Of a stretch of DNA of 64,000 bases, positions 3,263-51,001 are shown piece after piece. Where the stretch lies: contig JACRBM010000105.1 in assembly GCA_016219275.1 (NCBI GenBank), positions 1 to 64,000 on the forward strand, given 5' to 3'. A model generated the notes under the pieces. It was not told the DNA's origin. It searched no databases and saw only the letters and a program-made list of their open reading frames with translations. Position 1 is the stretch's first letter, and every line of letters starts with the position of its first letter. Source of the DNA: Chloroflexota bacterium (GTDB lineage: Bacteria; Chloroflexota; Anaerolineae; UBA4142). The translations under genes were made by a program, and so were the position numbers.

Positions 3263-6055
3263 ATGTCAACGAATCCACTTCTCGACCTGAAACAACTTGG
3301 ACAATCCATCTGGCTCGACAGCATCCGCCGCTCGCACATCACGTCGGGCGGACTCAAGAAATTGATTGACGACGACGGCGTCGCCGGCGAAACGTCCAAC
3401 CCGAACATTTTCGAAAAAGCGATTGCCGGCAGTCACGATTACGATGACGATGTGCGTGACCTGATCGCGGCGGGCAAGCGCGCACTCGAAATTTACGAAA
3501 CGCTCGCGATCAAAGATGTTCAAACCGCGTGCGATGTGTTTCGCCCGGTGTACGATGCGACCCAGGGCGGCGACGGATTTGTGAGTCTCGAAGTCTCGCC
3601 GAAACTCGCGTACGACACCGCCGGCACGATTGCCGAGGCGAAACGTTTTTTCAAAGCGGTCAATCGTCCGAACGTGATGATCAAAATTCCGGGGACGCCC
3701 GCGGGCGTCCCCGCGGTTGAAGAATGTCTTTATAGTGGGTTGAATGTCAACGTCACGTTGTTGTTCGCGGTCGAAGCGTACGAGCAGGTCGCGTGGGCGT
3801 ACGTGCGCGCGCTCGAACGCCGCGCGGCGGAGGGAAAACCGATTGATCGCATCGCGTCGGTCGCGAGTTTCTTCGTCAGCCGCATTGACACGCTCGGCGA
3901 TAAATTGCTCGCGGACAAAATGAAAGCGACGACGGATCCCGCGCTCCAGGCGAAACTCGAAGCGTTGGGCGGCAAAGCCGCGATTGCGAATGCGAAGCTC
4001 GCGTACCAACTGTTCAAGAAAATTTTTGGCGACGCGCGTTTTATCGCGCTCAAGTCGAAAGGGGCGCGCGTGCAGCGACCACTCTGGGCGAGCACGAGCA
4101 CCAAGAATCCAAATTATCCCGACGTGCTGTACGTCGAAACGTTGATCGGTCCCGATACGATCAACACCTTGCCGTTGGAAACGATTGACGCGTACCGCGA
4201 TCACGGCAAGCCGCGCGTCACGATTGAAGACGCTATCCCCGGCGCGTTGCGCGTGTTGCAAGACCTGAGTTCGGTCGGCATCCGCATGCAAGCGATCACC
4301 GATCAGGTGCTCGACGAAGGCGTGGTCAAGTTCGACCAAGCGTTCGATCAATTGCTGGGTAGCATCGAAGCCAAGATTACCGCGGCGGCGAACGCGCGCC
4401 ACAGCGCGAACCTCGGCAAGTTTGCGCGCGAGGTGGACGAGGCGCTCCGCGTCGCGCAGAACTCCAAGATCGTGCCGCGCATTTGGCAAAAAGACCCGGC
4501 GGTGTGGAAAGCGAAACCCGCGGAGCAACATGAAATCGTGGACCGTCTCGGCTGGCTGACGGTTGCAACGGAGATGCGAAAAAATATCGCCGACCTGCGC
4601 GCGTTTTCGGACGAAGTGAAACGCGCCGGGTACAAATCGGTCGTGCTGTGCGGGATGGGCGGCAGTTCGCTCTGCGTCGAAACGTTGCGCGACACGCTCG
4701 GCGTCGCGCGCGGTTTTCCGAAAATGTTCGTGCTCGATACGACCGATCCCGCGACGATTCGCGCGCTCGAACGCAAACTCGATGTCAAGCGAACGCTGTT
4801 CATCATCGCGAGCAAATCGGGCGGCACGGTCGAAACGTCGTCGCACTATAAATACTTTGCGAAACAAGTGTCCGCGCAAAGTTTTGTCGCGATCACGGAC
4901 GCGGGCACCTCGCTCGATCAACTCGCGCAAGCGCAAGGTTTTCGCCACGTGTTCCGCAATCCCGCGGACATCGGCGGACGCTACTCGGCGCTCTCGTTCT
5001 TTGGTCTCGTGCCCGCCGCGTTGATGGGGATTGACTTGGATCGTCTGCTGACACGCGCGGAAGAAATGGCGCGCGCGTGCGCGAGCGACGCGAATCCTGG
5101 GTTGTGGCTGGGTGTGGTGTGGGGCGCGCTTGCGAAACACAAACGCGACAAGATCACCGTCATCACCTCGCGTGGTCTCGAAACGTTCGGCGCGTGGGCG
5201 GAGCAACTCATCGCAGAATCTACCGGCAAGGAAGGCAAGGGGCTGACGCCGGTGGACGGCGAGCCGCTCGCGCCGTCGTCGCAGTACGGCGATGATCGCG
5301 TGTTCGTTTATTTGCGATTGGCTGGCGCGAAGAACGCCGCGCTCGACCGCAAAGTGACCGCACTCGAAGAAGCCGGGCAACCGGTCGTGCGTTTGCACAT
5401 GCGCGATGTGTACGATGTGGGCGCGGAATTTTTCCGCTGGGAATTTGCGACCGCCGTCGCCGGCGCGCAGATCGGCATCAACGCGTTCGATCAACCGAAC
5501 GTGCAAGAATCGAAAGACAACACCAAGCGCGTGCTGGCGACCAAGAAACCCAAAGCCGAAAAACCGGTTTGGAAGAACAAGCAGTTCGAAGTGTTTGCGA
5601 CCGAAAAAATGTCCAAGGTCAAAACGCTGCGCGACGTGTTTCGCGCGTTCATGGCGCACGCGCAGCCGAACGATTATTTCGCGCTAATGGCGTACGTCGA
5701 GCGGTCGCCGAAAAATCATCGTGCGTTGCAAGCGATACGGGTCGGGGCGCGCCGCGCGGGCAAACTCGCGACGACGTTGGGTTTCGGTCCGCGCTTTTTG
5801 CACTCGACAGGACAGTTACATAAGGGCGGCGCGAACACCGTCCTGGGTCTGCAAATCGTCGCCGACGACGCGGCGGACGCGAAAATTCCCGGCGAGGCGT
5901 ACTCGTTCGGCGCGCTCAAACGCGCGCAGGCGCTCGGCGATTGGCAAGCGCTGCAAAGTCACAAACGCCGCGCGTTGCGGGTGCGCGTGAAACGCGGCGG
6001 GTCGCTCGCGCAACTGGCGAAGGAATTTGTAAATGCGTTGAAGGAGCGGAAATAA
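3263..6055 (+). CDS. Bifunctional transaldolase / glucose-6-phosphate isomerase
   Basis: A 930-residue fusion. Residues 1 to about 375 are transaldolase: E-T-S-N-P-N-I-F near the N-terminus, the Schiff-base lysine region V-M-I-K-I-P-G-T (Lys141) and the N-V-T-L-L-F strand. Residues about 380-930 are a phosphoglucose isomerase with two SIS folds: G-M-G-G-S-S near 464, the phosphate-binding S-K-S-G-G-T-V-E-T near 517, and N-P-A-D-I-G-G-R-Y-S further on. Such fusions are known in Chloroflexota and some other bacteria and couple the non-oxidative pentose phosphate pathway to glucose 6-phosphate. The start follows AGGAG at the expected distance. It lies between rpiB and zwf, consistent with one pathway operon. 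Confidence 0.93.
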   Translation: MSTNPLLDLKQLGQSIWLDSIRRSHITSGGLKKLIDDDGVAGETSNPNIFEKAIAGSHDYDDDVRDLIAAGKRALEIYETLAIKDVQTACDVFRPVYDATQGGDGFVSLEVSPKLAYDTAGTIAEAKRFFKAVNRPNVMIKIPGTPAGVPAVEECLYSGLNVNVTLLFAVEAYEQVAWAYVRALERRAAEGKPIDRIASVASFFVSRIDTLGDKLLADKMKATTDPALQAKLEALGGKAAIANAKLAYQLFKKIFGDARFIALKSKGARVQRPLWASTSTKNPNYPDVLYVETLIGPDTINTLPLETIDAYRDHGKPRVTIEDAIPGALRVLQDLSSVGIRMQAITDQVLDEGVVKFDQAFDQLLGSIEAKITAAANARHSANLGKFAREVDEALRVAQNSKIVPRIWQKDPAVWKAKPAEQHEIVDRLGWLTVATEMRKNIADLRAFSDEVKRAGYKSVVLCGMGGSSLCVETLRDTLGVARGFPKMFVLDTTDPATIRALERKLDVKRTLFIIASKSGGTVETSSHYKYFAKQVSAQSFVAITDAGTSLDQLAQAQGFRHVFRNPADIGGRYSALSFFGLVPAALMGIDLDRLLTRAEEMARACASDANPGLWLGVVWGALAKHKRDKITVITSRGLETFGAWAEQLIAESTGKEGKGLTPVDGEPLAPSSQYGDDRVFVYLRLAGAKNAALDRKVTALEEAGQPVVRLHMRDVYDVGAEFFRWEFATAVAGAQIGINAFDQPNVQESKDNTKRVLATKKPKAEKPVWKNKQFEVFATEKMSKVKTLRDVFRAFMAHAQPNDYFALMAYVERSPKNHRALQAIRVGARRAGKLATTLGFGPRFLHSTGQLHKGGANTVLGLQIVADDAADAKIPGEAYSFGALKRAQALGDWQALQSHKRRALRVRVKRGGSLAQLAKEFVNALKERK

Positions 6056-38967: not shown

Positions 38968-39309
38968 TTAGAAACTGCCGACCGCATCCACCGGGTTGTC
39001 GAACGATTGGAACACGTCGAGCAAGCCGGCAAGTTCGAATGCCTTTTTCACTTTGGTGGTGAGACCAGCGAGGCGCAGATCGCCGCGATTGAAACGGCGC
39101 ACTTGTTTGAGCGCGGCGAGCAACGCGCGCAGACCGGCGCTACTCATAAAATCGGTCTCGGACAAATCTACGACGATGCGAAACCGACCGTCTTTGATAA
39201 CGCGATTCAACGCCTGGTCGAGTTGGGGCGCGGTGCTCGAATCAATGCGACCGCTCACTTCGATAAGGTCCACGCGTTTGTACTGTTTGTTACTGATCTT
39301 GGTCGCCAT
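38968..39309 (-). CDS. STAS-domain anti-anti-sigma factor
   Basis: 113 residues of SpoIIAA/RsbV type: V-S-G-R-I-D-S-S-T-A-P-Q-L-D, then V-D-L-S-E-T-D-F-M-S-S-A-G-L-R-A-L with the phosphorylatable serine in the S-S-A-G motif. Such proteins bind anti-sigma kinases when dephosphorylated. No partner kinase or sigma factor is nearby. GGAGGA precedes the ATG. Confidence 0.92.
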   Translation of the reverse strand: MATKISNKQYKRVDLIEVSGRIDSSTAPQLDQALNRVIKDGRFRIVVDLSETDFMSSAGLRALLAALKQVRRFNRGDLRLAGLTTKVKKAFELAGLLDVFQSFDNPVDAVGSF

Positions 39310-39473: not shown

Positions 39474-39563
39474 AAAGGAGGTGGTGCCTAGCAGTTACGT
39501 TTGAATTCTGCACGAGTCCGACGGTTCACTCTATTGGAAAGACTGTCGCAGTGGTGCGACAGA
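39474..39563 (+). promoter_or_regulatory. Structured cstA leader with orphan Shine-Dalgarno and hairpin
   Basis: AAAGGAGG (39474-39481) has no credible downstream gene: only a 7-8 codon GTG mini-ORF ending in TGA. CTGTCGCA (39543-39550) and TGCGACAG (39555-39562) make a perfect 8-bp hairpin with a 4-base loop, 15 bases before the real SD. Regulation of cstA translation is possible. Confidence 0.45.
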
Positions 39564-39587
39564 TTATTCGAATTTTGGAGGTCAATG

Positions 39588-41591
39588 ATGGACATCCGTC
39601 TCGTCGTTCTCTTGCTCATTTTGATCCCGCTGATCGTAACGGGCGCTATCGCCGCATCGGGCATGGCGATGAACACGTTGCTGATCGTCGTCCTGGGCGG
39701 TGTGATGATCTATCTCACCTACAATTTCTATTCTCGCCGAATTGATCGTGAGATCATCCAAGCCGACCCCAAAAAAGCGACGCCGGCAAAACTGTACATG
39801 GATGGTGTGGACTTTATGCCCACCAGCCGGAATGTGTTGTACGGTTATCACTTCAAGTCCATTGCCGCGGCAGGTCCTATCACGGGACCCATCGTTGCCG
39901 CGACATTCTGGGGCTGGCTCCCCTCTCTGCTTTGGCTCGTCCTCGGTGTGACATTCATCGGTTGGGCGGCGGATTATTCCGCCATCATGCTCTCAGTGCG
40001 CAATGATGGCAACTCGCTTAGCGCGATCACGTACCGCCTGATTGCTCCACGCACGCGCACAATTCTGTTTGTGTTCATCTTCTTCTACTTGCTCCTGGTC
40101 GCCGGCGCGTTCATGGGCGTGATGACCGCGTTGATGGCGGCGCGCCCGGATGTTCCACTCGGCTTGTTTACACTCGCCGTGATGGGGTTGCTGGCTGGTC
40201 AAATGCTCTATCGCTGGAAGATGGACTTGATCATGGTGACCGTGATTACGGTCACGCTCACCATCGCCGCGATGGCGCTGGGTCCGCTCGTCACAGGTAA
40301 AGATGCGGCAGGCAAGGATGTTCAACCCGTCGTCCAAGCCGTGACTGGTTTGAACGCCGCGATTGATGGTCTCACTAACAAACAGCCGCTCTTCGTCGTC
40401 GTTGATCCGACGCGCGCCGATCCGCGCACGCCGGCAATCGGCGCGGATGGCAAACGTCCCGAGACCGTGGCGTACGATGCCAAGAACGATGCGATCCGGA
40501 CTTTGCCGAACTATCTCTTCTGGGCGATCTTCCTGCTCGCGTTCAGTTACCTGGGCACGAACTTGCCGATCTGGCGATTCGCACAACCGGTGAACTATAT
40601 CGGTTTCTGGATCATGTTGTTCACTATCGGCTTGAGCGCAGTCGGCGGCTTGCTCGCGCCGTTCCTCGCGCCCAAGGTTGCCACGTTCACTCTGCCGGCA
40701 TTCAAGCCGAACGTCAATCTACCTAACGTGTACGACCTGGGCTTTACCTTCGTTGCCGGCAAGCAATGGCAACCGCTGTGGCCCATGCTCTTCGTCACGA
40801 TTGCGTGCGGCGCGATTTCCGGCTGGCACTCGCTCATTGGCTCGGTCAACACCTCGCGTCAGTTGGAGTACGAAACCGACGCGTTGCCGGTCGGCGGCGG
40901 CGGCATGTTGAGCGAGAACACACTCGGCTTGCTCGCGCTGACGGCAGTCGCGATTACCGGTCTGGCTGGTGTCGGCGCGTTCGCCACTGGCGTCGGTCGC
41001 TTGCTCGATGTGATCTTTGGCGGCGGGAGTGGCGCGTTCGTCGCGTACGGTACCGCGCTCGGCTTTGGCGCGTTCATGGTCATCGTGTTGACGGTGGTGC
41101 AGTTGATCTTTCGCGTGATGCGTGTGACCTTGACCGAATGGCTCGGCGAAGCGGTCCCTCTGCTCAAGAACCCGCACGTGTCCACCATCATCTCGATGGC
41201 GATCGCGTTGTTCCTCTTGCTCACTGGCACGTGGGTGTACTTGTGGCAACTGTTCGGCTCGGCGAACCAGTTGATGGCGGCGCTCGGTCTGCTCATCGTC
41301 TCGATCTGGTTGCGCTCGACCGGACGGAATCCGATGTACGCGCTCGTTCCGATGCTGTTCATGTACATCACCACCATGGCGGCGACTATCGTCATCGGGT
41401 ACAATCAATACGTCAACGTGCTCACCGCGCCGGCATTCGCCGGTCAAATGATCGTGCAAATCGGCGGTTGGACGCAGTTGATCATTTCCGCATTGCTCTT
41501 TGTCTGCGCGGCGGTCATTGCCTGGGATGCCTGGATCGCGTGGCAACGCTATTCCAAAGCGCCCAAGGCAGCGGGCGCTCAAGCAGAATAA
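39588..41591 (+). CDS. cstA: Carbon starvation protein A family transporter
   Basis: 667 residues, about 16 hydrophobic helices. Family hallmarks include H-F-K-S-I-A-A-A-G-P-I-T-G-P (the HF.SIAGAGPI.GP motif), W-G-W-L-P-S and Q-L-E-Y-E-T-D-A-L-P-V-G-G-G-G-M-L-S-E. CstA proteins import peptides or pyruvate during carbon limitation. GGAGG (39577-39581) favours the ATG at 39588 over 39585. The central loop (about residues 230-290, K-D-A-A-G-K-D...) is longer than usual. Confidence 0.92.
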   Translation: MDIRLVVLLLILIPLIVTGAIAASGMAMNTLLIVVLGGVMIYLTYNFYSRRIDREIIQADPKKATPAKLYMDGVDFMPTSRNVLYGYHFKSIAAAGPITGPIVAATFWGWLPSLLWLVLGVTFIGWAADYSAIMLSVRNDGNSLSAITYRLIAPRTRTILFVFIFFYLLLVAGAFMGVMTALMAARPDVPLGLFTLAVMGLLAGQMLYRWKMDLIMVTVITVTLTIAAMALGPLVTGKDAAGKDVQPVVQAVTGLNAAIDGLTNKQPLFVVVDPTRADPRTPAIGADGKRPETVAYDAKNDAIRTLPNYLFWAIFLLAFSYLGTNLPIWRFAQPVNYIGFWIMLFTIGLSAVGGLLAPFLAPKVATFTLPAFKPNVNLPNVYDLGFTFVAGKQWQPLWPMLFVTIACGAISGWHSLIGSVNTSRQLEYETDALPVGGGGMLSENTLGLLALTAVAITGLAGVGAFATGVGRLLDVIFGGGSGAFVAYGTALGFGAFMVIVLTVVQLIFRVMRVTLTEWLGEAVPLLKNPHVSTIISMAIALFLLLTGTWVYLWQLFGSANQLMAALGLLIVSIWLRSTGRNPMYALVPMLFMYITTMAATIVIGYNQYVNVLTAPAFAGQMIVQIGGWTQLIISALLFVCAAVIAWDAWIAWQRYSKAPKAAGAQAE

Positions 41592-41661: not shown

Positions 41662-42306
41662 TCAAGTGATGTCTTGCGCCAGTCTTTTCAAATTGGCAAA
41701 CCAGTTGTTCGCATTGTCCTGGTTGCCGTCTGGCATCAGCCAGTGAACCTCCAGGTTCGGCACGGTGCGATGCACCGACAAGCGCACCAGTTTTCCGCCG
41801 GCTTTCGTTGCCAGGTCAATCAGCGGTTGCGCGTCGTGGTTGTCGCCGCCGGAGCGATACGCTTCGAGTCCTTGCGCGGTCAAGGGTACCGGCGTCCAAT
41901 TTTTTTTCTTGACATCGCGTTCGGTGTGATGCGTCGTCCAACCCTTCGGGTCGAACACTTCGAGTTCAAAGCGCGTGGCGTTGTCCAATTGCGCGCGAAA
42001 GATCATCAAGTCGCGTCTGCCGCGCCAACGCGACCACAACCAATGCACAGGCACATCGCGCGGCTCGAAGACGAATAGAACTTCGGCGGTGCGAAACGGC
42101 GCGAACGACTTGGTGACCTTGATTTCGGCGACCGAGGAACCCAGCCAGCGCACCGTCGCGCGCTCGCCGACCAACGGCAAGCCGCCGCGCATCCACTTGA
42201 TCACGCGATCCCCTTTGCGGATGTTCAAATGTGTGCCGATGGCGAACGCTCCTAGAATCACAACTGCGAAAGCGAGCAACAACGTAAATGTGATGTTATC
42301 CGGCAT
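41662..42306 (-). CDS. Single-pass membrane protein of unknown function
   Basis: 214 residues from ATG 42306. One N-terminal hydrophobic helix (F-T-L-L-L-A-F-A-V-V-I-L-G-A-F-A-I) followed by a soluble domain with W-M-R-G-G-L-P-L-V-G-E-R-A-T-V-R-W-L-G-S-S-V and several Trp-rich strands. Not recognised. Its promoter is back to back with that of the ArsA operon. Confidence 0.75.
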   Translation of the reverse strand: MPDNITFTLLLAFAVVILGAFAIGTHLNIRKGDRVIKWMRGGLPLVGERATVRWLGSSVAEIKVTKSFAPFRTAEVLFVFEPRDVPVHWLWSRWRGRRDLMIFRAQLDNATRFELEVFDPKGWTTHHTERDVKKKNWTPVPLTAQGLEAYRSGGDNHDAQPLIDLATKAGGKLVRLSVHRTVPNLEVHWLMPDGNQDNANNWFANLKRLAQDIT

Positions 42307-42342
42307 AACGAACCCATGTCCTTTCCGCGCGTCAGTGCGGCG

Positions 42343-42404
42343 ATTATAGCACGGCGGATAGAGGGCGTCAATTTTTTGACAAGGCATCTTCACGATGCTA
42401 TAAT
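42343..42404. promoter_or_regulatory. Back-to-back divergent promoters
   Basis: Minus strand: TTGACG (42366-42371) and TATAAT (42343-42348). Plus strand: TTGACA (42376-42381) and TATAAT (42399-42404). Both have 17-base spacers and near-perfect boxes, and the two -35 boxes are four bases apart. RNA polymerase cannot occupy both at once, so the 214-residue membrane protein and the ArsA operon may be reciprocally expressed. Confidence 0.85.
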
Positions 42405-42431
42405 GACTATGATAAGGTAGGCGAATCCACA

Positions 42432-42719
42432 ATGAGAGCCGTGGTGAAACACATGAGTTGGTTGCAAAAGGTGCGCGAGTTTTTGTATGGCTTTACGGCG
42501 TACGAATTCGAACAGCATTTTGTCGAAATGCGCGCCTCGCTCGAAACGCTTTTCATCGCGCTCACGTTTGGCGATATGCTCGGCTTGCCCATCATCCCTC
42601 CGTACTATTCATTGCGCTTGCTCCCCTTTGTCGTTCCCAGCATCAAAACGTGGAAGCGCCGCGTCAATCGTGAACGCGAACTGTTTGACGACCACGAACT
42701 CGATCTGCACGGATTATAA
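42432..42719 (+). CDS. Small hydrophobic-hairpin protein, paralogue 1 (ArsA operon)
   Basis: 95 residues, not recognised. A basic amphipathic N-terminus (W-L-Q-K-V-R-E-F-L-Y-G) precedes T-L-F-I-A-L-T-F-G-D-M-L-G-L-P-I-I-P-P-Y-Y-S (split), then L-R-L-L-P-F-V-V-P, then a W-K-R-R basic tail. The G-D-x-x-G-x-P-I-x-P-P-Y-Y-S-L-R-L-L-P core is shared with the next gene, so they are tandem paralogues. The hydrophobic core plus basic flanks suggests membrane association. Confidence 0.8.
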   Translation: MRAVVKHMSWLQKVREFLYGFTAYEFEQHFVEMRASLETLFIALTFGDMLGLPIIPPYYSLRLLPFVVPSIKTWKRRVNRERELFDDHELDLHGL

Positions 42720-42746: not shown

Positions 42747-43037
42747 ATGCCAGAAGAAAAAGCCAAGAAAGAAAAGCGCGGCGGACTTGCTGGGGTTGTA
42801 GACAACCTCAAAGAAGTTATGTATGGAATGGCGGCGCACGATATGAGCCGCTATGCCGTCCGCACGCGCGCCTCGATGGAGCACCTGTTCATCCTCATCA
42901 CGATGGGTGACCTGATCGGCGTCCCGATTTTGCCCCCGTACTACTCTCTGCGCTTGTTGCCGTACGTCGTGCCGAACATCGCGACCTGGAAACGCCGCAT
43001 GTTGCGCGAAAAAGACATCAGCGACGCGATGTTCTAG
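42747..43037 (+). CDS. Small hydrophobic-hairpin protein, paralogue 2 (ArsA operon)
   Basis: 96 residues. A lysine-rich head (P-E-E-K-A-K-K-E-K-R) is followed by the same core as its neighbour: M-E-H-L-F-I-L-I-T-M-G-D-L-I-G-V-P-I-L, P-P-Y-Y-S-L-R-L-L-P-Y-V-V-P, W-K-R-R. AAAGGAG precedes the ATG. Two such proteins ahead of two ArsA-like ATPases suggests one partner or client per ATPase. Confidence 0.82.
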   Translation: MPEEKAKKEKRGGLAGVVDNLKEVMYGMAAHDMSRYAVRTRASMEHLFILITMGDLIGVPILPPYYSLRLLPYVVPNIATWKRRMLREKDISDAMF

Positions 43038-43145: not shown

Positions 43146-44117
43146 ATGTCACTCAAAGATGTTTTTCAACAAAATCCCGACCGTCGCTACATCATGTTCG
43201 GCGGCAAAGGCGGTCTGGGGAAAACGACGTTTTCCGCCGCCACCGCGTACTGGCTGGCGTCGCAAGGGCACAAGGTGCTCGTGTTCTCCGTAGACCCGCA
43301 AGCCAGCTTGACCGATATTTTCCAGAAAGATATTTTTGGCAAAGGCGCGGTCAAGATCATGGACAACCTGTGGGCGCAAGAGATTGACGCCGACAGCCAC
43401 ATCAAGAATTACCAGAACGAAATCCGCAAAAAGATTCTCGACATGTACGGCTTTGACAAAGTGCCGGACGAAATCGAGGATTATATCCAAGCCGCGTCCG
43501 CCGAACCGGCGATGGAAGAGTCCGCGATCTTTGATGCAGTCGTGGACATTATGGTCGAGGGGCAGTACGATTACTACATCTACGACCTCGTGCCGCTTGG
43601 ACACGCGCTGTACTATCTCTCGATGGCTAAAGTGTACGACGAGTGGATTAACAAGATCACCAAACTGCGCGAGGAAATGCGCGAGTACGAAACGATGGTG
43701 TCGCGCATCAAACGCGAAAAGGAAACCGACGAGGACAAGATCCTCGGCGAGTTGCTGTACATCAAAAAGCGCATCAACGCGTCGTCGCAGATCCTTACCG
43801 ACAAGGTCAAGACCGCGTTCTTCTTCGTCGTCGTGCCGGAAGAAATGATCATTCTCGATACGCAAAAAGCCGCCGAGTTGTTCGCGAAATTCGACGTGCC
43901 GATTGCCGGGTATATCGTCAACCGCGTGTTGCCGCCCGAACTGCGTAACCAAGTCGTGCCGGCGTACTTGCATAATCGCTTGCAAATGCAGAGCGGTTAC
44001 ATGGACAAGATCAAGGAAACGCTGGGCGACCAAGTGCGCGGTTATGTGCCCGAGATGGAACGCGACGTCACTGGCTTGGCGATGATCGAAAAACTCGCCA
44101 AGATCATGTACGGGTAG
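43146..44117 (+). CDS. ArsA/Get3-like ATPase A (switch I Asp kept, His lost)
   Basis: 323 residues, SIMIBI-class ATPase. Deviant Walker A G-G-K-G-G-L-G-K-T (19-27) has the signature lysine needed for dimeric hydrolysis. Switch I reads S-V-D-P-Q-A-S, where Get3/ArsA have S-T-D-P-A-H-(S/N): the catalytic Asp (Asp50) is present but the His position is Ala. Switch II reads D-L-V-P-L-G-H (147-153) against canonical D-T-A-P-T-G-H. No CxxC zinc motif and no arsenic genes nearby, so arsenite transport is unlikely. A coiled, charged segment (about 170-215) could be the client-binding helical subdomain. Confidence 0.88.
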   Translation: MSLKDVFQQNPDRRYIMFGGKGGLGKTTFSAATAYWLASQGHKVLVFSVDPQASLTDIFQKDIFGKGAVKIMDNLWAQEIDADSHIKNYQNEIRKKILDMYGFDKVPDEIEDYIQAASAEPAMEESAIFDAVVDIMVEGQYDYYIYDLVPLGHALYYLSMAKVYDEWINKITKLREEMREYETMVSRIKREKETDEDKILGELLYIKKRINASSQILTDKVKTAFFFVVVPEEMIILDTQKAAELFAKFDVPIAGYIVNRVLPPELRNQVVPAYLHNRLQMQSGYMDKIKETLGDQVRGYVPEMERDVTGLAMIEKLAKIMYG

Positions 44118-44129
44118 GAGTGAAGCAAA

Positions 44130-45113
44130 ATGGCTGGCATTGACAAATCAATGGCGCAGTACGTCAAGGACCGTCCCGGACTCAAGTACATTTTCTTCGG
44201 CGGCAAGGGCGGCGTGGGCAAGACCGTGATGGCAGGCGTTACCGCGATGTGGTTCGCGCAACAAGGTCGCAAGACGATGCTCGCGTCCACCAACCCGGTC
44301 CACTCGCTCTCCGGCTTGCTCGATCAAAACGTATTCGGGCAACCGACGGCGGTGAAAGGCGTGCCGAATCTGTGGGCGTACGAAATTGATACGAAGGAAA
44401 CCATCGAACGCTCCAAAGCCGACATCAAGAACAAGATTCAATGGTTTTTGAAATTCGCGGAAATCTCGACGCAAGCCGATCAGTTCGTCGAATCGGCGAC
44501 GATGAATCCGGCATTCGAAGAATCCGCGATGTTCGAGAACATGATCGAGTTGATGTTCAAAGACGAGTACGACGTGTACGTGTTCGACACCGCGCCGACC
44601 GCGAACGCGCGGCGCTTGCTCGGCATGAGCAAGGTCTATTCGCTCTGGGTCAACAAGATGATGAAATCGCGCGATGAAGCGCGCTCGTTGCGTGAGATGC
44701 TCTCGTTCACCAAGAAAAAAGAAGAAGACCCGCTGATGGATTACCTTATCAGTTTCCGCGATCGCATGGCTCACGCGCAAAAACTACTCACTGACAAGGC
44801 GCTCACCTCGTTCTTCTTCGTCACTCTCCCCGAGGCGTTGCCCATCGCGGTGATCAAGCGATTTATCAACTGGTTCCACGATTTCGGCATCCCGGTTGGT
44901 GGTGTGCTGGTCAACATGGTCATTCAAAAAGACCAGGTGCTCACATCGTCACCCGAATTCGTGCGCAACCGCGTCGCGATGCAAGATGCGTACATGGATC
45001 AAATCTGGAGCGATTTTAACGGTCAAGTGCGCGCGGTCATCCCGCTTCTCGATAACGAAGTGCGCGGCGTCAAAGGGTTGGAGAATTTCGTCAAGCACAC
45101 GTTCGTCGGATAG
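44130..45113 (+). CDS. ArsA/Get3-like ATPase B (switch I Asp replaced by Asn)
   Basis: 327 residues. Walker A G-G-K-G-G-V-G-K-T (24-32). Switch I is S-T-N-P-V-H-S: His is kept but the catalytic Asp is Asn (Asn55), the same substitution as the hydrolysis-dead D57N of yeast Get3. Switch II is D-T-A-P-T-A-N (153-159), keeping D-T-A-P-T and losing the G-H that ATPase A retains. The two proteins are therefore degenerate at complementary positions and probably form a heterodimer. Starts 12 bases after ATPase A; SD is AGGAGTG. Confidence 0.88.
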   Translation: MAGIDKSMAQYVKDRPGLKYIFFGGKGGVGKTVMAGVTAMWFAQQGRKTMLASTNPVHSLSGLLDQNVFGQPTAVKGVPNLWAYEIDTKETIERSKADIKNKIQWFLKFAEISTQADQFVESATMNPAFEESAMFENMIELMFKDEYDVYVFDTAPTANARRLLGMSKVYSLWVNKMMKSRDEARSLREMLSFTKKKEEDPLMDYLISFRDRMAHAQKLLTDKALTSFFFVTLPEALPIAVIKRFINWFHDFGIPVGGVLVNMVIQKDQVLTSSPEFVRNRVAMQDAYMDQIWSDFNGQVRAVIPLLDNEVRGVKGLENFVKHTFVG

Positions 45114-47889: not shown

Positions 47890-48387
47890 TTATTTCTTGG
47901 ATTCCAATTTGCTCCCAGCCAATAGCCCTTTCTCACGAATCATCTTTTCCGAAATCCCCGATTTCACTTGTATCCCTTTGTAACTCCAATTCGTGAGAAC
48001 AGTTCTGGCTTCCTTGGGAACGACGATAGCGTCTACTGGATGACCACGGCGCGTTTTTGGGTTGTAATTCCAAACGAGAATCACTATTCGGTACGGGAGG
48101 ACGCCGGTTTGAGCCTCCTGTTCAGTTAGCGGGGCGACTGTAAATGTCTTGGTTGTCCGATCTAATCGCACACTCTTAACATCGAAATTTAGCGGCTCGC
48201 CGTAATCGGGAGTCCTACTGTCATTGCGCTGGAAATCGAAACCTTTGGCGCGGCAAAACTCTTCAACATCTTTCTCCCACAACTTGCTGTTGCCCTGACG
48301 CTCTTGTGGATTTCTGATCCGGATCGAACGCCCTGATCGAAGATAGTCCAGGATTAAGGTCTTGATTTCCTCCAGCGAAAGTTCCAT
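47890..48387 (-). CDS. Probable restriction endonuclease (PD-(D/E)xK-like)
   Basis: 165 residues, family not firmly recognised. The segment T-P-D-Y-G-E-P-L-N-F-D-V-K-S gives Pro60-Asp61 and Asp69-Val-Lys71, a fit to the PD-(D/E)xK nuclease core. It lies directly downstream of a methyltransferase on the same strand and overlaps its end by 125 bases in another frame. GAGGAGA precedes the ATG. Function is inferred from motif and position; other roles remain possible. Confidence 0.6.
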   Translation of the reverse strand: MELSLEEIKTLILDYLRSGRSIRIRNPQERQGNSKLWEKDVEEFCRAKGFDFQRNDSRTPDYGEPLNFDVKSVRLDRTTKTFTVAPLTEQEAQTGVLPYRIVILVWNYNPKTRRGHPVDAIVVPKEARTVLTNWSYKGIQVKSGISEKMIREKGLLAGSKLESKK

Positions 48388-50962
48388 GATTCTCCTCGTC
48401 GTCAGATTTGATGTTACTGCGCGTGCGTGTTTTGGTCCATCGAAACAAGACCGCTTTTTCTAGCGAAGTTGCGAGTTGGATCTGAGTTGCATCAATTGTG
48501 TCTATTGGGTACCCAAGAATTTGCAAGAACACACGATCAAGCTCATTCATCAGTTGTTTGGCTTGTTCTGAGCGACGATCCCGTACACTAATGATACGAT
48601 CAAACAACTGGAGCAAACCCTGCTTGACGGTTGGGCTGATTGGTCCAAAATCCGGGCAAGGCAAATCCTGGAGATGGTTGACCTGAATCTTGAGCATGAA
48701 ACTTCCATCGTATCGCGCCCGGTGCAATGCGTATCCCTCTAAAAGAAACCGCGCGAGACGACTACACAAAAACAGGTAAACCAGTTTGGTGGTTTCTTCG
48801 TCCGAACATTCGTCAATCGTTTGGAACTGATCGGTAGCGTAAACCCTTGCGCTATTCCAGAAAACTCCGATCTCGGTGTCCACGATGCACTGCACCGCGA
48901 TTGCCGGTGGCTTGCTCAGAGATAGCGTGTACCATTCTGGGCGATGACCTTGATTCGACAAACGGTCCACCGGACGATCACATGGATTATGATGTTTGCG
49001 ACACTCTGGGCACTGGGCGCACATTCCTCGATGTGGATAAAGTTCAGGATGCTGTTTGTGTTCCTCCACTGCACGCGCTTGGCATTGCGGGCAAGCGTAA
49101 GCGACTCCGTGCTGATGGATGTACTTAGCAACTCCCTTTAGTCGGTTCGTCGAAAAACCGCGCTCGACTTGGGCAATTTTTTCGCGCAGGTTCAATAAAC
49201 GGTACTGCGTCGTAGACGGCAACACACATCCACGCACATCGCGCGAATTCCGTACAACCTTGATGAAAATATTTGCCGACTCTTCACGCGCTACTTGCGG
49301 AAACAAATCCGAATCAATCCGTAGTAAAAAGAACTCGTTGTCGCCCGATTTGATACCCATCCGCGCGATAGAATAATCACTGATCTTTTTGGGACAACGG
49401 CGTTCTATCTCAGAACGCAGTGGGTCTTGAAAAAGCGTCTGTGTCCAATTGGCGGAACGCGCCAGTTCATCACGATCTATAACATGCCCGTGCTCATCGG
49501 ACAACGGTTCATTCCAGACGGTCAAATCTTGGAACCGCAAGGGTGTTAGCGGTGTCCGCCGCACAAGCGAAAGAATGACAGTATTGGCTTTAACCTTTAG
49601 ACCCTGTTGCGTAAATGGATGGTCATGCAAGGTGTAGAGATGGCGCAATTCGACTTGTTGCGTTAGGAACCGGCGAATCGGTTTGCCATAGCGGGTGTCA
49701 AAAAAATTGCGGGAGGTAATGTACGCTAAAACTCCATTCGGGCGAAGCAGATCAGCGCCTTGCAAAATGAAAAAGTTACTTAGATCCGAAGTGGTGCGCA
49801 ATTCATACTCTGGATGCCGCTTGTTCCAGTTTTCGATGAACGCGCGTTTTTCCGTAACATGATTGCGCTGGCTTAACGCGATAAAGGGCGGATTGCCAAC
49901 GCAAATATCGAAACCGCCACGCGCCGTAAGAAATGCCTGGAGTGGATCGGCGGATTCCTCGACCAAAAAAGTGCTCTGCGTAGTGTGAGTGGATTGCTTC
50001 AATGCAACAAGCGCATCGCCGTGAACGAGATTGGGCAATGCCGGCAAGTTCTCCGAAGCGACGATCCCAATCAATTCCAGACTCGCCAACCACAATCGCA
50101 TTTTGGCGATGTGAATGGCGGTCGGCATAATGTCCACGCCATAAAGATTGTGGCTGAGAATGTGTCGGACCAATGTCGTGTGTTCTGTTGGCGAAGTGGA
50201 AAGCGAGGAGCGGCAGAATAGTCTCAAGCGGTGGAGCGCCTGCAGCGCCGCGACGAGAAATGCGCCCCCGCCCATACTCAAATCAACCAAACGAATCTCT
50301 TCGAGGACATGTTCAAGCCATTGTTGTATTTCTCGCGCGTGATGATTGTCGAGAGGTGTACCCGTTTCCCATACGTGCAAAACGGAGCGCAAATGCTCGG
50401 AATGATCAAATTGGTTCTGATACTTTACTTCCAGCCATTCTTCCAACGCGTGGGTCACAATTGAATAGGCAAGTGCGTCCGCCGTGAAATAAGAACCGGT
50501 TTTGCGGTTATCAATCCAACGTTCGTAAATGTAACCCAGCACCCAACTTTTTACTACCGGCTTGGAGTCCGTTGCGGAATGTGAATTATCTGGTAGAAGC
50601 GAAAAACGGTAGCGCGGCATTATCTCACTAGCCAGTTCAGCAATGCCTTCACGTTTGATAGAACGTGGATTAAGCAATGAACCCAGAGTCAGTTGGTCAT
50701 TTAGAAAATCCAGTGGTGAAGAATCGGGAACAGAATTTGTAAGCGATTCGAATGGAAATCCTGTCTTGCCGAAAAACCCTGCCTCATCCAAAAAACGCAC
50801 GAACAGAATTCGGCAGATCAAACCTGCTTCGGTTTGTGCGGCTTGAGCTGAATCGGACCCAAGCAACCTACCCCGCAGAGTCCAAATCGTTTTGAATAAC
50901 TCCATTGAGGCGTCCGGCTTGGGCGCAGAATTGACGTAGGTTTGACCAACTAGATTATTCAT
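48263..50962 (-). CDS. Type II/IIG-like DNA adenine methyltransferase
   Basis: 899 residues. Motifs in order: T-G-S-Y-F-T (155-160), SAM motif I D-L-S-M-G-G-G-A-F (227-235), then the catalytic N-P-P-F (357-360) of gamma-class N6-adenine methylases. A Cys-rich segment further on (C-P-Q-C, C-A-Q-C-P-E-C) may bind zinc within the target-recognition region. No nuclease motif is visible at the N-terminus, so cleavage probably lies in the next gene. The ATG at 50962 is chosen over an upstream ATG at 51001 because it sits just below a promoter (TATACT), giving a leaderless message. Codon use is less GC-rich than its neighbours, hinting at transfer. Confidence 0.85.
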   Translation of the reverse strand: MNNLVGQTYVNSAPKPDASMELFKTIWTLRGRLLGSDSAQAAQTEAGLICRILFVRFLDEAGFFGKTGFPFESLTNSVPDSSPLDFLNDQLTLGSLLNPRSIKREGIAELASEIMPRYRFSLLPDNSHSATDSKPVVKSWVLGYIYERWIDNRKTGSYFTADALAYSIVTHALEEWLEVKYQNQFDHSEHLRSVLHVWETGTPLDNHHAREIQQWLEHVLEEIRLVDLSMGGGAFLVAALQALHRLRLFCRSSLSTSPTEHTTLVRHILSHNLYGVDIMPTAIHIAKMRLWLASLELIGIVASENLPALPNLVHGDALVALKQSTHTTQSTFLVEESADPLQAFLTARGGFDICVGNPPFIALSQRNHVTEKRAFIENWNKRHPEYELRTTSDLSNFFILQGADLLRPNGVLAYITSRNFFDTRYGKPIRRFLTQQVELRHLYTLHDHPFTQQGLKVKANTVILSLVRRTPLTPLRFQDLTVWNEPLSDEHGHVIDRDELARSANWTQTLFQDPLRSEIERRCPKKISDYSIARMGIKSGDNEFFLLRIDSDLFPQVAREESANIFIKVVRNSRDVRGCVLPSTTQYRLLNLREKIAQVERGFSTNRLKGVAKYIHQHGVAYACPQCQARAVEEHKQHPELYPHRGMCAQCPECRKHHNPCDRPVDRLSNQGHRPEWYTLSLSKPPAIAVQCIVDTEIGVFWNSARVYATDQFQTIDECSDEETTKLVYLFLCSRLARFLLEGYALHRARYDGSFMLKIQVNHLQDLPCPDFGPISPTVKQGLLQLFDRIISVRDRRSEQAKQLMNELDRVFLQILGYPIDTIDATQIQLATSLEKAVLFRWTKTRTRSNIKSDDEENHGTFAGGNQDLNPGLSSIRAFDPDQKSTRASGQQQVVGERC

Positions 50963-50972
50963 ATCACGCGCG

Positions 50973-51001
50973 AGTATAGCATACGCAAAACTCTTTGGCA
51001 A
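50973..51001 (-). promoter_or_regulatory. Promoter of the restriction-modification pair
   Basis: Minus-strand TTGCCA (50996-51001) and TATACT (50973-50978), 17-base spacer. The -10 box is about 10 bases from ATG 50962, so the leader is only a few bases. Confidence 0.7.

Follow-up and report, generated by a model that had tools for sequence, protein, structure and literature searches.

Within a 64,000-nucleotide stretch of Chloroflexota DNA (contig JACRBM010000105.1, positions 1 to 64,000; hereafter the window), two adjacent genes encode ArsA/Get3-type ATPases, which we call A (43146..44117, + strand, 323 amino acids) and B (44130..45113, + strand, 327 amino acids). We found that the nucleotide-switch motifs of A and B deviate from consensus in different ways, that this split is a fixed trait of a family found in several phyla rather than a product of chance, and that the pair occurs together with a CstA-family transporter and two small CstX-like proteins. 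We consider it probable that A and B are the obligate partners of a heterodimer of ArsA/Get3 architecture with unequal nucleotide sites, in which A would hydrolyse ATP and B would only bind it, and which would act with the CstX-like proteins on CstA. The initial annotation of this region had correctly placed two ArsA/Get3-like ATPases at 43146-45113; CstA, the CstX-like proteins and the role in CstA function that was proposed for such ATPases in 2010 were absent from it.

The two open reading frames (ORFs) lie in the same frame with a gap of 12 bases. Both products matched PF02374 (A, E=2e-73, 247.6 bits; B, E=6e-69, 233.1 bits; cut-off 24.3) and TIGR00345 (A, E=1e-70, 238.4 bits; B, E=4e-66, 223.7 bits; cut-off 135), and they are clearly full-length ArsA/Get3/TRC40 proteins with the deviant Walker A motif GKGGxGK. 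All narrower families that we compared remained far from their cut-offs. The arsenical-pump ArsA equivalog TIGR04291 gave 107 bits for A and 111 bits for B against a cut-off of 650, and A and B further differ from that pump in being separate genes, free of cysteine and located in a region (about 37.8-51 kb) among whose examined ORFs no arsenic gene was recognised. The lack of any cysteine also means that neither protein has the CxxC zinc motif of eukaryotic-type Get3; on both this point and the missing arsenic genes, the initial annotation was right. The BagA/BagB equivalogs (NF053622 and NF053621) scored 38-51 bits with A and B against cut-offs of 400 and 521, and the Get3d/NosAFP equivalog NF050088 scored 53 and 69 bits against 325.

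Archaeal Get3 in the PDB, which reads DPAHS in switch I and DTAPTGH in switch II, served as the reference for the motifs. ATPase A, the putative catalytic subunit, has the P-loop GKGGLGKT (43203..43226, +) with intradimeric Lys21 and Walker Lys26, the switch I DPQAS (within SVDPQAS; 43293..43307, +) and the switch II DLVPLGH (within DLVPLGHA; 43584..43604, +). It keeps both switch aspartates, the catalytic Asp50 and Asp147, and has lost the switch-I histidine. ATPase B, the putative ATP-binding and non-hydrolysing subunit, has the P-loop GKGGVGKT (44202..44225, +) with intradimeric Lys26 and Walker Lys31, the switch I NPVHS (within STNPVHS; 44292..44306, +) and the switch II DTAPTAN (within DTAPTANA; 44586..44606, +). 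It retains the switch-I histidine and the switch-II Asp153, while the catalytic switch-I aspartate is replaced by Asn55, at the position of D57N in Get3, and Gly-His by Ala-Asn. The switch motifs deviate as had been described, with the nuance that A preserves the proline of DTAP as well as Gly-His in switch II, and only T, A and T are changed.

An alignment of paralogue pairs, which had been proposed as a check, revealed that the split is fixed across phyla. After removal of duplicates, switch I is DPQAS in 104 of 104 A-type proteins and NPVHS in all 113 B-type proteins. It begins with aspartate in each of the 52 other ArsA/Get3 homologues collected, so that, among the proteins collected, asparagine at this position is confined to the B type. 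Switch II is DLVPLGH in 100 of the 104 A proteins and DMPPFGH in the remaining four, and DTAPTAN in 109 of the 113 B proteins and DTAAVAN in the other four. Even a divergent sub-lineage with about 40-50% identity (loci L099-L102) maintains the split, with DPQAS and DMPPFGH in A and NPVHS and DTAAVAN in B. Across the alignment, A and B differ in 44 columns in which each type is at least 95% fixed for its own residue. The intradimeric lysine is present in 102 of the 104 A-type proteins and in each of the 112 B-type sequences that cover this position; the two exceptions are betaproteobacterial A proteins (L159, residues 1-60 of A, and L160, at 4010-4981) that read GGGGGVGKT and have lost this lysine while retaining the Walker lysine. 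A search of a 229-genome sample of the class, made to replicate this loss, found no further betaproteobacterial A proteins beyond genome G335.

Full-length B orthologues occur in about 26 of the 40 relatives and in about 36 of the 301 genomes of a Chloroflexota phylum sample. We also detected them in 8 of 247 genomes from the phylum of the Terriglobia metagenome-assembled genome (MAG) G336 and in 25 of 247 from that of the Desulfomonile MAG G337, with A adjacent in 8/8 and 25/25 cases, respectively. A scan of named genomes extended the range to Betaproteobacteria, Deltaproteobacteria and some further groups, several of them MAGs whose labels may be wrong, and overall the pair was found in Chloroflexota, Acidobacteriota, Desulfobacterota and a few others. 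An A gene lies immediately upstream of every B, including in all Chloroflexota samples, except where the contig ends. The plasmid matches of B among those listed were mostly annotated as arsenic-pump ArsA, and none exceeded 60% identity.

In a tree of 87 proteins, the A proteins (support 100/100) and the B proteins (100/99) each formed a clade, and the two clades were sisters (98/94), separate from the single ATPases. Because each type is monophyletic and the two are sister clades, the tree indicates that A and B are products of one early duplication that predates their spread across phyla. Among close relatives, dN is about 0.07-0.10 and dS 0.67-1.03 for A and B, rates that point to purifying selection on both. 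The tree, these rates and the fixed motifs together imply that the split arose once, early, and has been kept by selection. We also asked whether the motif changes might be neutral or decaying, with B a degenerating copy, given that both proteins are off consensus. Strong purifying selection and the absolute fixation of the altered residues across phyla make this extremely improbable, and the possibility that B is a pseudogene was rejected on the same ratio (dN << dS).

To obtain a model of the pair, the A and B frames were translated as a single chain across the two stop codons, and an AlphaFold prediction was made with 52 aligned sequences (predicted local distance difference test score, pLDDT, 75.8; predicted template modelling score, pTM, 0.57). 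The joined model superposed on both halves of fused ArsA, over 545 residues with 9nbw (Z 27.6, root-mean-square deviation, rmsd, 4.0) and over 523 residues with 1ii9 (Z 27.0, rmsd 3.4). It is compatible with, rather than proof of, an ArsA-like pseudo-dimer. The initial annotation had suggested an obligate A-B heterodimer in which each half supplies what the other lacks. The adjacency of the genes, the fixed split and the superposition on fused ArsA all favour the first part of this suggestion; the second part was not supported.

Mutual supply would require each subunit to donate the switch residues missing from its partner and thereby build composite active sites at the interface, and the losses do look complementary on paper in a pair that is obligate. 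In Get3 structures, switch I and switch II act in cis, in contact with the nucleotide bound by the P-loop of their own subunit. The element that crosses to the nucleotide of the partner is the intradimeric lysine of Walker A, and the attacking water is oriented by the switch-I aspartate (PMC10248533). With switches that act in cis, mutual repair in trans is unsupported. In addition, both P-loops keep the intradimeric lysine in nearly all members, the two exceptions favouring an asymmetric pair over mutual repair, and the aspartate missing from B is left without an obvious donor, given that the aspartate of A sits at A's own nucleotide. We therefore regard such composite sites as very unlikely. 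About equally unlikely, in our judgement, is that each protein forms its own homodimer with its own function, A as an ATPase and B as a static ATP-bound scaffold. Each protein does keep a complete P-loop with both lysines, and homodimers were suggested for the CstA-type ArsAs in 2010 (PMC2963123). Against this stand the strict adjacency and co-retention of the two genes and the loss of the A-side lysine in L159 and L160, which is most easily explained by a shared A-B interface.

Upstream of the pair lies a gene for a CstA-family transporter (39501..41591, +; PF02554, E=8e-102; 696 amino acids from the longest ORF, with the true start probably slightly further in). The order cstA, gene X on the opposite strand, the CstX-like genes S1 and S2, A and B gives an operon-like array. 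Of 46 distinct pair loci, 36 have cstA close by, and in most relatives with enough flanking sequence it lies upstream of the pair; genomes in which the two are not adjacent usually carry cstA at another site, as does the single-contig genome G029, and the association thus extends to unlinked genes. Of the 40 relatives, 27 have B and 13 do not; CstA occurs in 25 of the former and in 0 of the latter (Fisher p ~9e-9, ignoring shared ancestry), and in the two B-containing relatives without CstA, B lies at a contig edge. Across the 301 genomes of the phylum sample, 35 contain CstA and the pair, 2 the pair only, 3 CstA only and 261 neither. E. coli CstA imports pyruvate (PMC5847655, PMC7730263). The CstA of the window is of the same family but too distant for a substrate assignment, as it scored 146 bits against the cut-off of 1188 of the CstA pyruvate/proton symporter equivalog NF011590. 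A small conserved protein (core of about 87 amino acids, GWGICLACEM...) adjoins cstA in some relatives (for example L058, 4115-4663) and was not found in the window.

Between cstA and the ATPases lie S1 (42432..42719, +; 95 amino acids, C-terminal LHGL) and S2 (42747..43037, +; 96 amino acids, C-terminal DAMF). Both are conserved in pair loci, and S2 is the most constant neighbour of A. Each has a single hydrophobic segment with a peak hydropathy of 1.63 over 19 residues, which in S2 contains a Pro-rich turn (GVPILPPYYSLRLLP). S2 was predicted as a two-helix hairpin at a low confidence (pLDDT 61) that is too weak for a fold search. Comparison of hidden Markov models identified S1 and S2 as homologues of the CC-star protein encoded at single-ATPase loci. 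They are nevertheless outside the cory-CC-star family NF041419, with scores (S1, E=2e-9, 37 bits; S2, E=2.5e-8, 34 bits) below its cut-off of 80 bits and no CC end. Pfam contained no family for S1, S2 or gene X, NCBIfam gave no match for X, PHROGs gave nothing useful, and no CstX match for S2 was found on plasmids. In size, position and hydrophobic segment, S1 and S2 agree with published CstX, to which they are likened by description and not by sequence. They are CstX-like proteins, and with CstA in the cluster and a protein of about 90 amino acids adjoining the ATPase, the array has the features of a CstA-CstX-ArsA system. In some genomes, a third CstX-like gene follows directly after B (L103, 1240-1503; L104, 3649-3891; L153, 4497-4745; L172, 5794-6252). 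The window's own genome harbours a third, unlinked one (L121, 1492-1782, - strand; G000:C67 at about 123.75 kb; 56% to S2 over 86 amino acids).

Gene X (41662..42432, - strand) encodes about 236 amino acids with a hydrophobic segment at the N-terminus and conserved EPRD and GRRD motifs. Homologues are present in 25 of the 46 distinct pair loci, where they lie either in the interval from cstA to cstX or directly after B, and none was found near single-ATPase loci. Gene X is an optional fifth component of the cluster and may correspond to the 'CstY' described in 2010, to which we liken it on size and topology.

As a control, we examined 14 loci with CstX and a single ATPase, five in Pseudomonadota (L204-L208) and nine in the phylum of G336 (L267-L275); single-domain ATPases with SSDPTPS and no CstX nearby (L276-L279, phylum of G337) were excluded. 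The gene order is cstA-cstX-ATPase in L204-L208, while in L267-L275 CstA adjoins in two loci and was not detected in seven (L269-L275). In L271, the gene upstream resembles a heavy-metal P-type ATPase. All 14 ATPases have an intact switch I (DPAHS/N-type) and switch II (DTAP(T/S)GHT-type), and all 14 loci have one CstX that ends in Cys-Cys. Three of these CstX proteins were scored, and all exceeded the cory-CC-star cut-off of 80 (128.5, 131.6 and 88.8 bits). By comparison, none of 88 CstX proteins from pair loci ends in Cys-Cys, and the 46 pair loci contain two CstX in 38 cases, three in 2 and one detected in 6. The comparison of single and pair loci thus shows that, where the ATPase is duplicated, CstX is usually duplicated as well and is without its thiol end. 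We read this as the probable conversion of a homodimer-plus-CstX machine into a heterodimer-plus-CstX-pair machine, with an inferred direction of change.

The same counts bear on a reading in which the pair is a Get3-like targeting factor that shields CstX clients and inserts them into the membrane, with only an indirect effect on CstA. The fold matches that of Get3 with clients, the sequence of CstX combines a hydrophobic stretch with a short basic tail, and CstX tracks the ATPase 1:1 or mostly 2:2, even at the loci without detected CstA (L269-L275). However, the hydrophobic stretch is central and broken by proline rather than a C-terminal anchor, a naturally ATP-locked subunit would slow the release of clients, and the presence of CstA very closely follows that of the pair. 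Overall, we find targeting a rather doubtful explanation.

We return to the heterodimer acting on CstA. The D57N exchange in Get3 impairs hydrolysis and leaves nucleotide binding unimpaired (PMC6633398). Taken together with the Asp/Asn split, this effect predicts that site A, with its catalytic switch-I aspartate, should be able to hydrolyse ATP and that site B, a natural equivalent of Get3 D57N, should only bind it, with little or no hydrolysis, and would have the role of a fixed clamp or of a regulatory site. The lysine of A, which would serve site B, has been lost in L159 and L160, and the lysine of B, which would serve site A, is always kept where the sequence covers it, which fits the direction predicted by the model. 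The dimer would work with the two CstX-like proteins on the CstA-family transporter, and one ATP turned over in site A would drive one open-close cycle. Genomic linkage suggests that this cycle may energise CstA, gate it, or aid the assembly of CstX or CstA. The system would have originated from an ancestor with one ATPase and one CstX, probably by joint duplication, and the CstX proteins of the pair loci are without the C-terminal Cys-Cys. As a more tentative extension, we speculate that CstA is a secondary-type carrier under an obligate one-stroke heterodimer, in which B is ATP-locked, A fires once per cycle and the two CstX serve as coupling arms.

Several points weigh against the heterodimer acting on CstA. 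The confidence of the structural model is moderate, a dimer is favoured from the outset by the covalent joining and by known ArsA folds, and only the joined A-B chain was modelled. The lysine argument relies on two related sequences and is weak evidence. A is itself off consensus in switch II (TAPT to LVPL), so that its own activity is not assured. The co-occurrence of CstA and the pair in the 301 genomes (Fisher p ~8e-40) was calculated ignoring shared ancestry. Finally, L269-L275 combine a CC-ending CstX and a single intact ATPase without detected CstA, which means that the module is not tied to CstA everywhere and may serve other membrane partners.

If the proposed mechanism is true, the pair joins ArsA-ArsB as an example of a carrier energised or gated by a soluble ArsA-type motor, here with a built-in D57N-type subunit. 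Energising of CstA by an ArsA-type ATPase has been an untested proposal since 2010, and sites separated by evolution make it testable, since one site can be mutated at a time without a fused protein. The presumed hydrolysis-dead half has already been made by nature. The pair also poses the question of whether a machine of the Get3/ArsA fold can run on one hydrolysis per cycle. The near-perfect co-occurrence with CstA points to uptake of pyruvate-like or peptide nutrients as the phenotype to examine. Elsewhere in the window, a gene for a STAS-domain protein (38968-39309, - strand) lies upstream of cstA, and an Eco57I-type restriction-modification methylase (48263-51001, - strand) adjoins a small ORF (47890-48387).

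With regard to known systems, heterodimeric ABC exporters also combine one consensus and one degenerate, non-hydrolysing site in an obligate heterodimer; their fold is unrelated, and the likeness to A-B is an analogy only. M. tuberculosis BagA/BagB (Rv3679/Rv3680; 6BS3) are likewise ArsA/Get3-like proteins from adjacent genes that were solved together, and the switch I of BagA is also deviant, with EVEGRQ instead of S-T-D-P. The motif changes are nonetheless unlike those of A and B, which score far below the Bag cut-offs. We know of no link between BagA/BagB and CstA or CstX. Get3/TRC40 shares the fold, and B naturally carries the laboratory change of the hydrolysis-impaired D57N trap mutant (9ns5; PMC6633398); A-B differs in being bacterial, presumably heteromeric and without the CxxC zinc site. 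The arsenic-pump ArsA of E. coli and L. ferriphilum (1ii9, 9nbw) has two ArsA modules forming one pseudo-symmetric ATPase beside a membrane carrier, an arrangement on which the predicted A-B superposes, whereas A-B comprises two unfused, cysteine-free gene products with no ars gene recognised nearby, with asparagine in one switch I and CstA as the candidate partner.

The closest likeness is to the operons described by Castillo and Saier in 2010, which combine CstA, a CstX of about 90 amino acids and single-domain ArsA homologues of about 330 amino acids, and for which the ATPase was proposed to energise CstA (PMC2963123). These authors noted adjacent ATPase pairs in Pyrobaculum arsenaticum and Symbiobacterium (cluster 15) and paired CstX in a few archaea, and remarked that the switch-I aspartate 'can be substituted only by N', a statement not tied to one member of a pair (PMC2963123). 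In the literature searched, we found no further paper combining CstX with CstA. The pair described here is the kind of system predicted in 2010, and the fixed A/B split and the lack of Cys-Cys in pair-locus CstX are both missing from that paper (PMC2963123). As far as the literature searched shows, what appears to be new is the fixed catalytic asymmetry of the two ATPases together with the change in CstX that is linked to their pairing.
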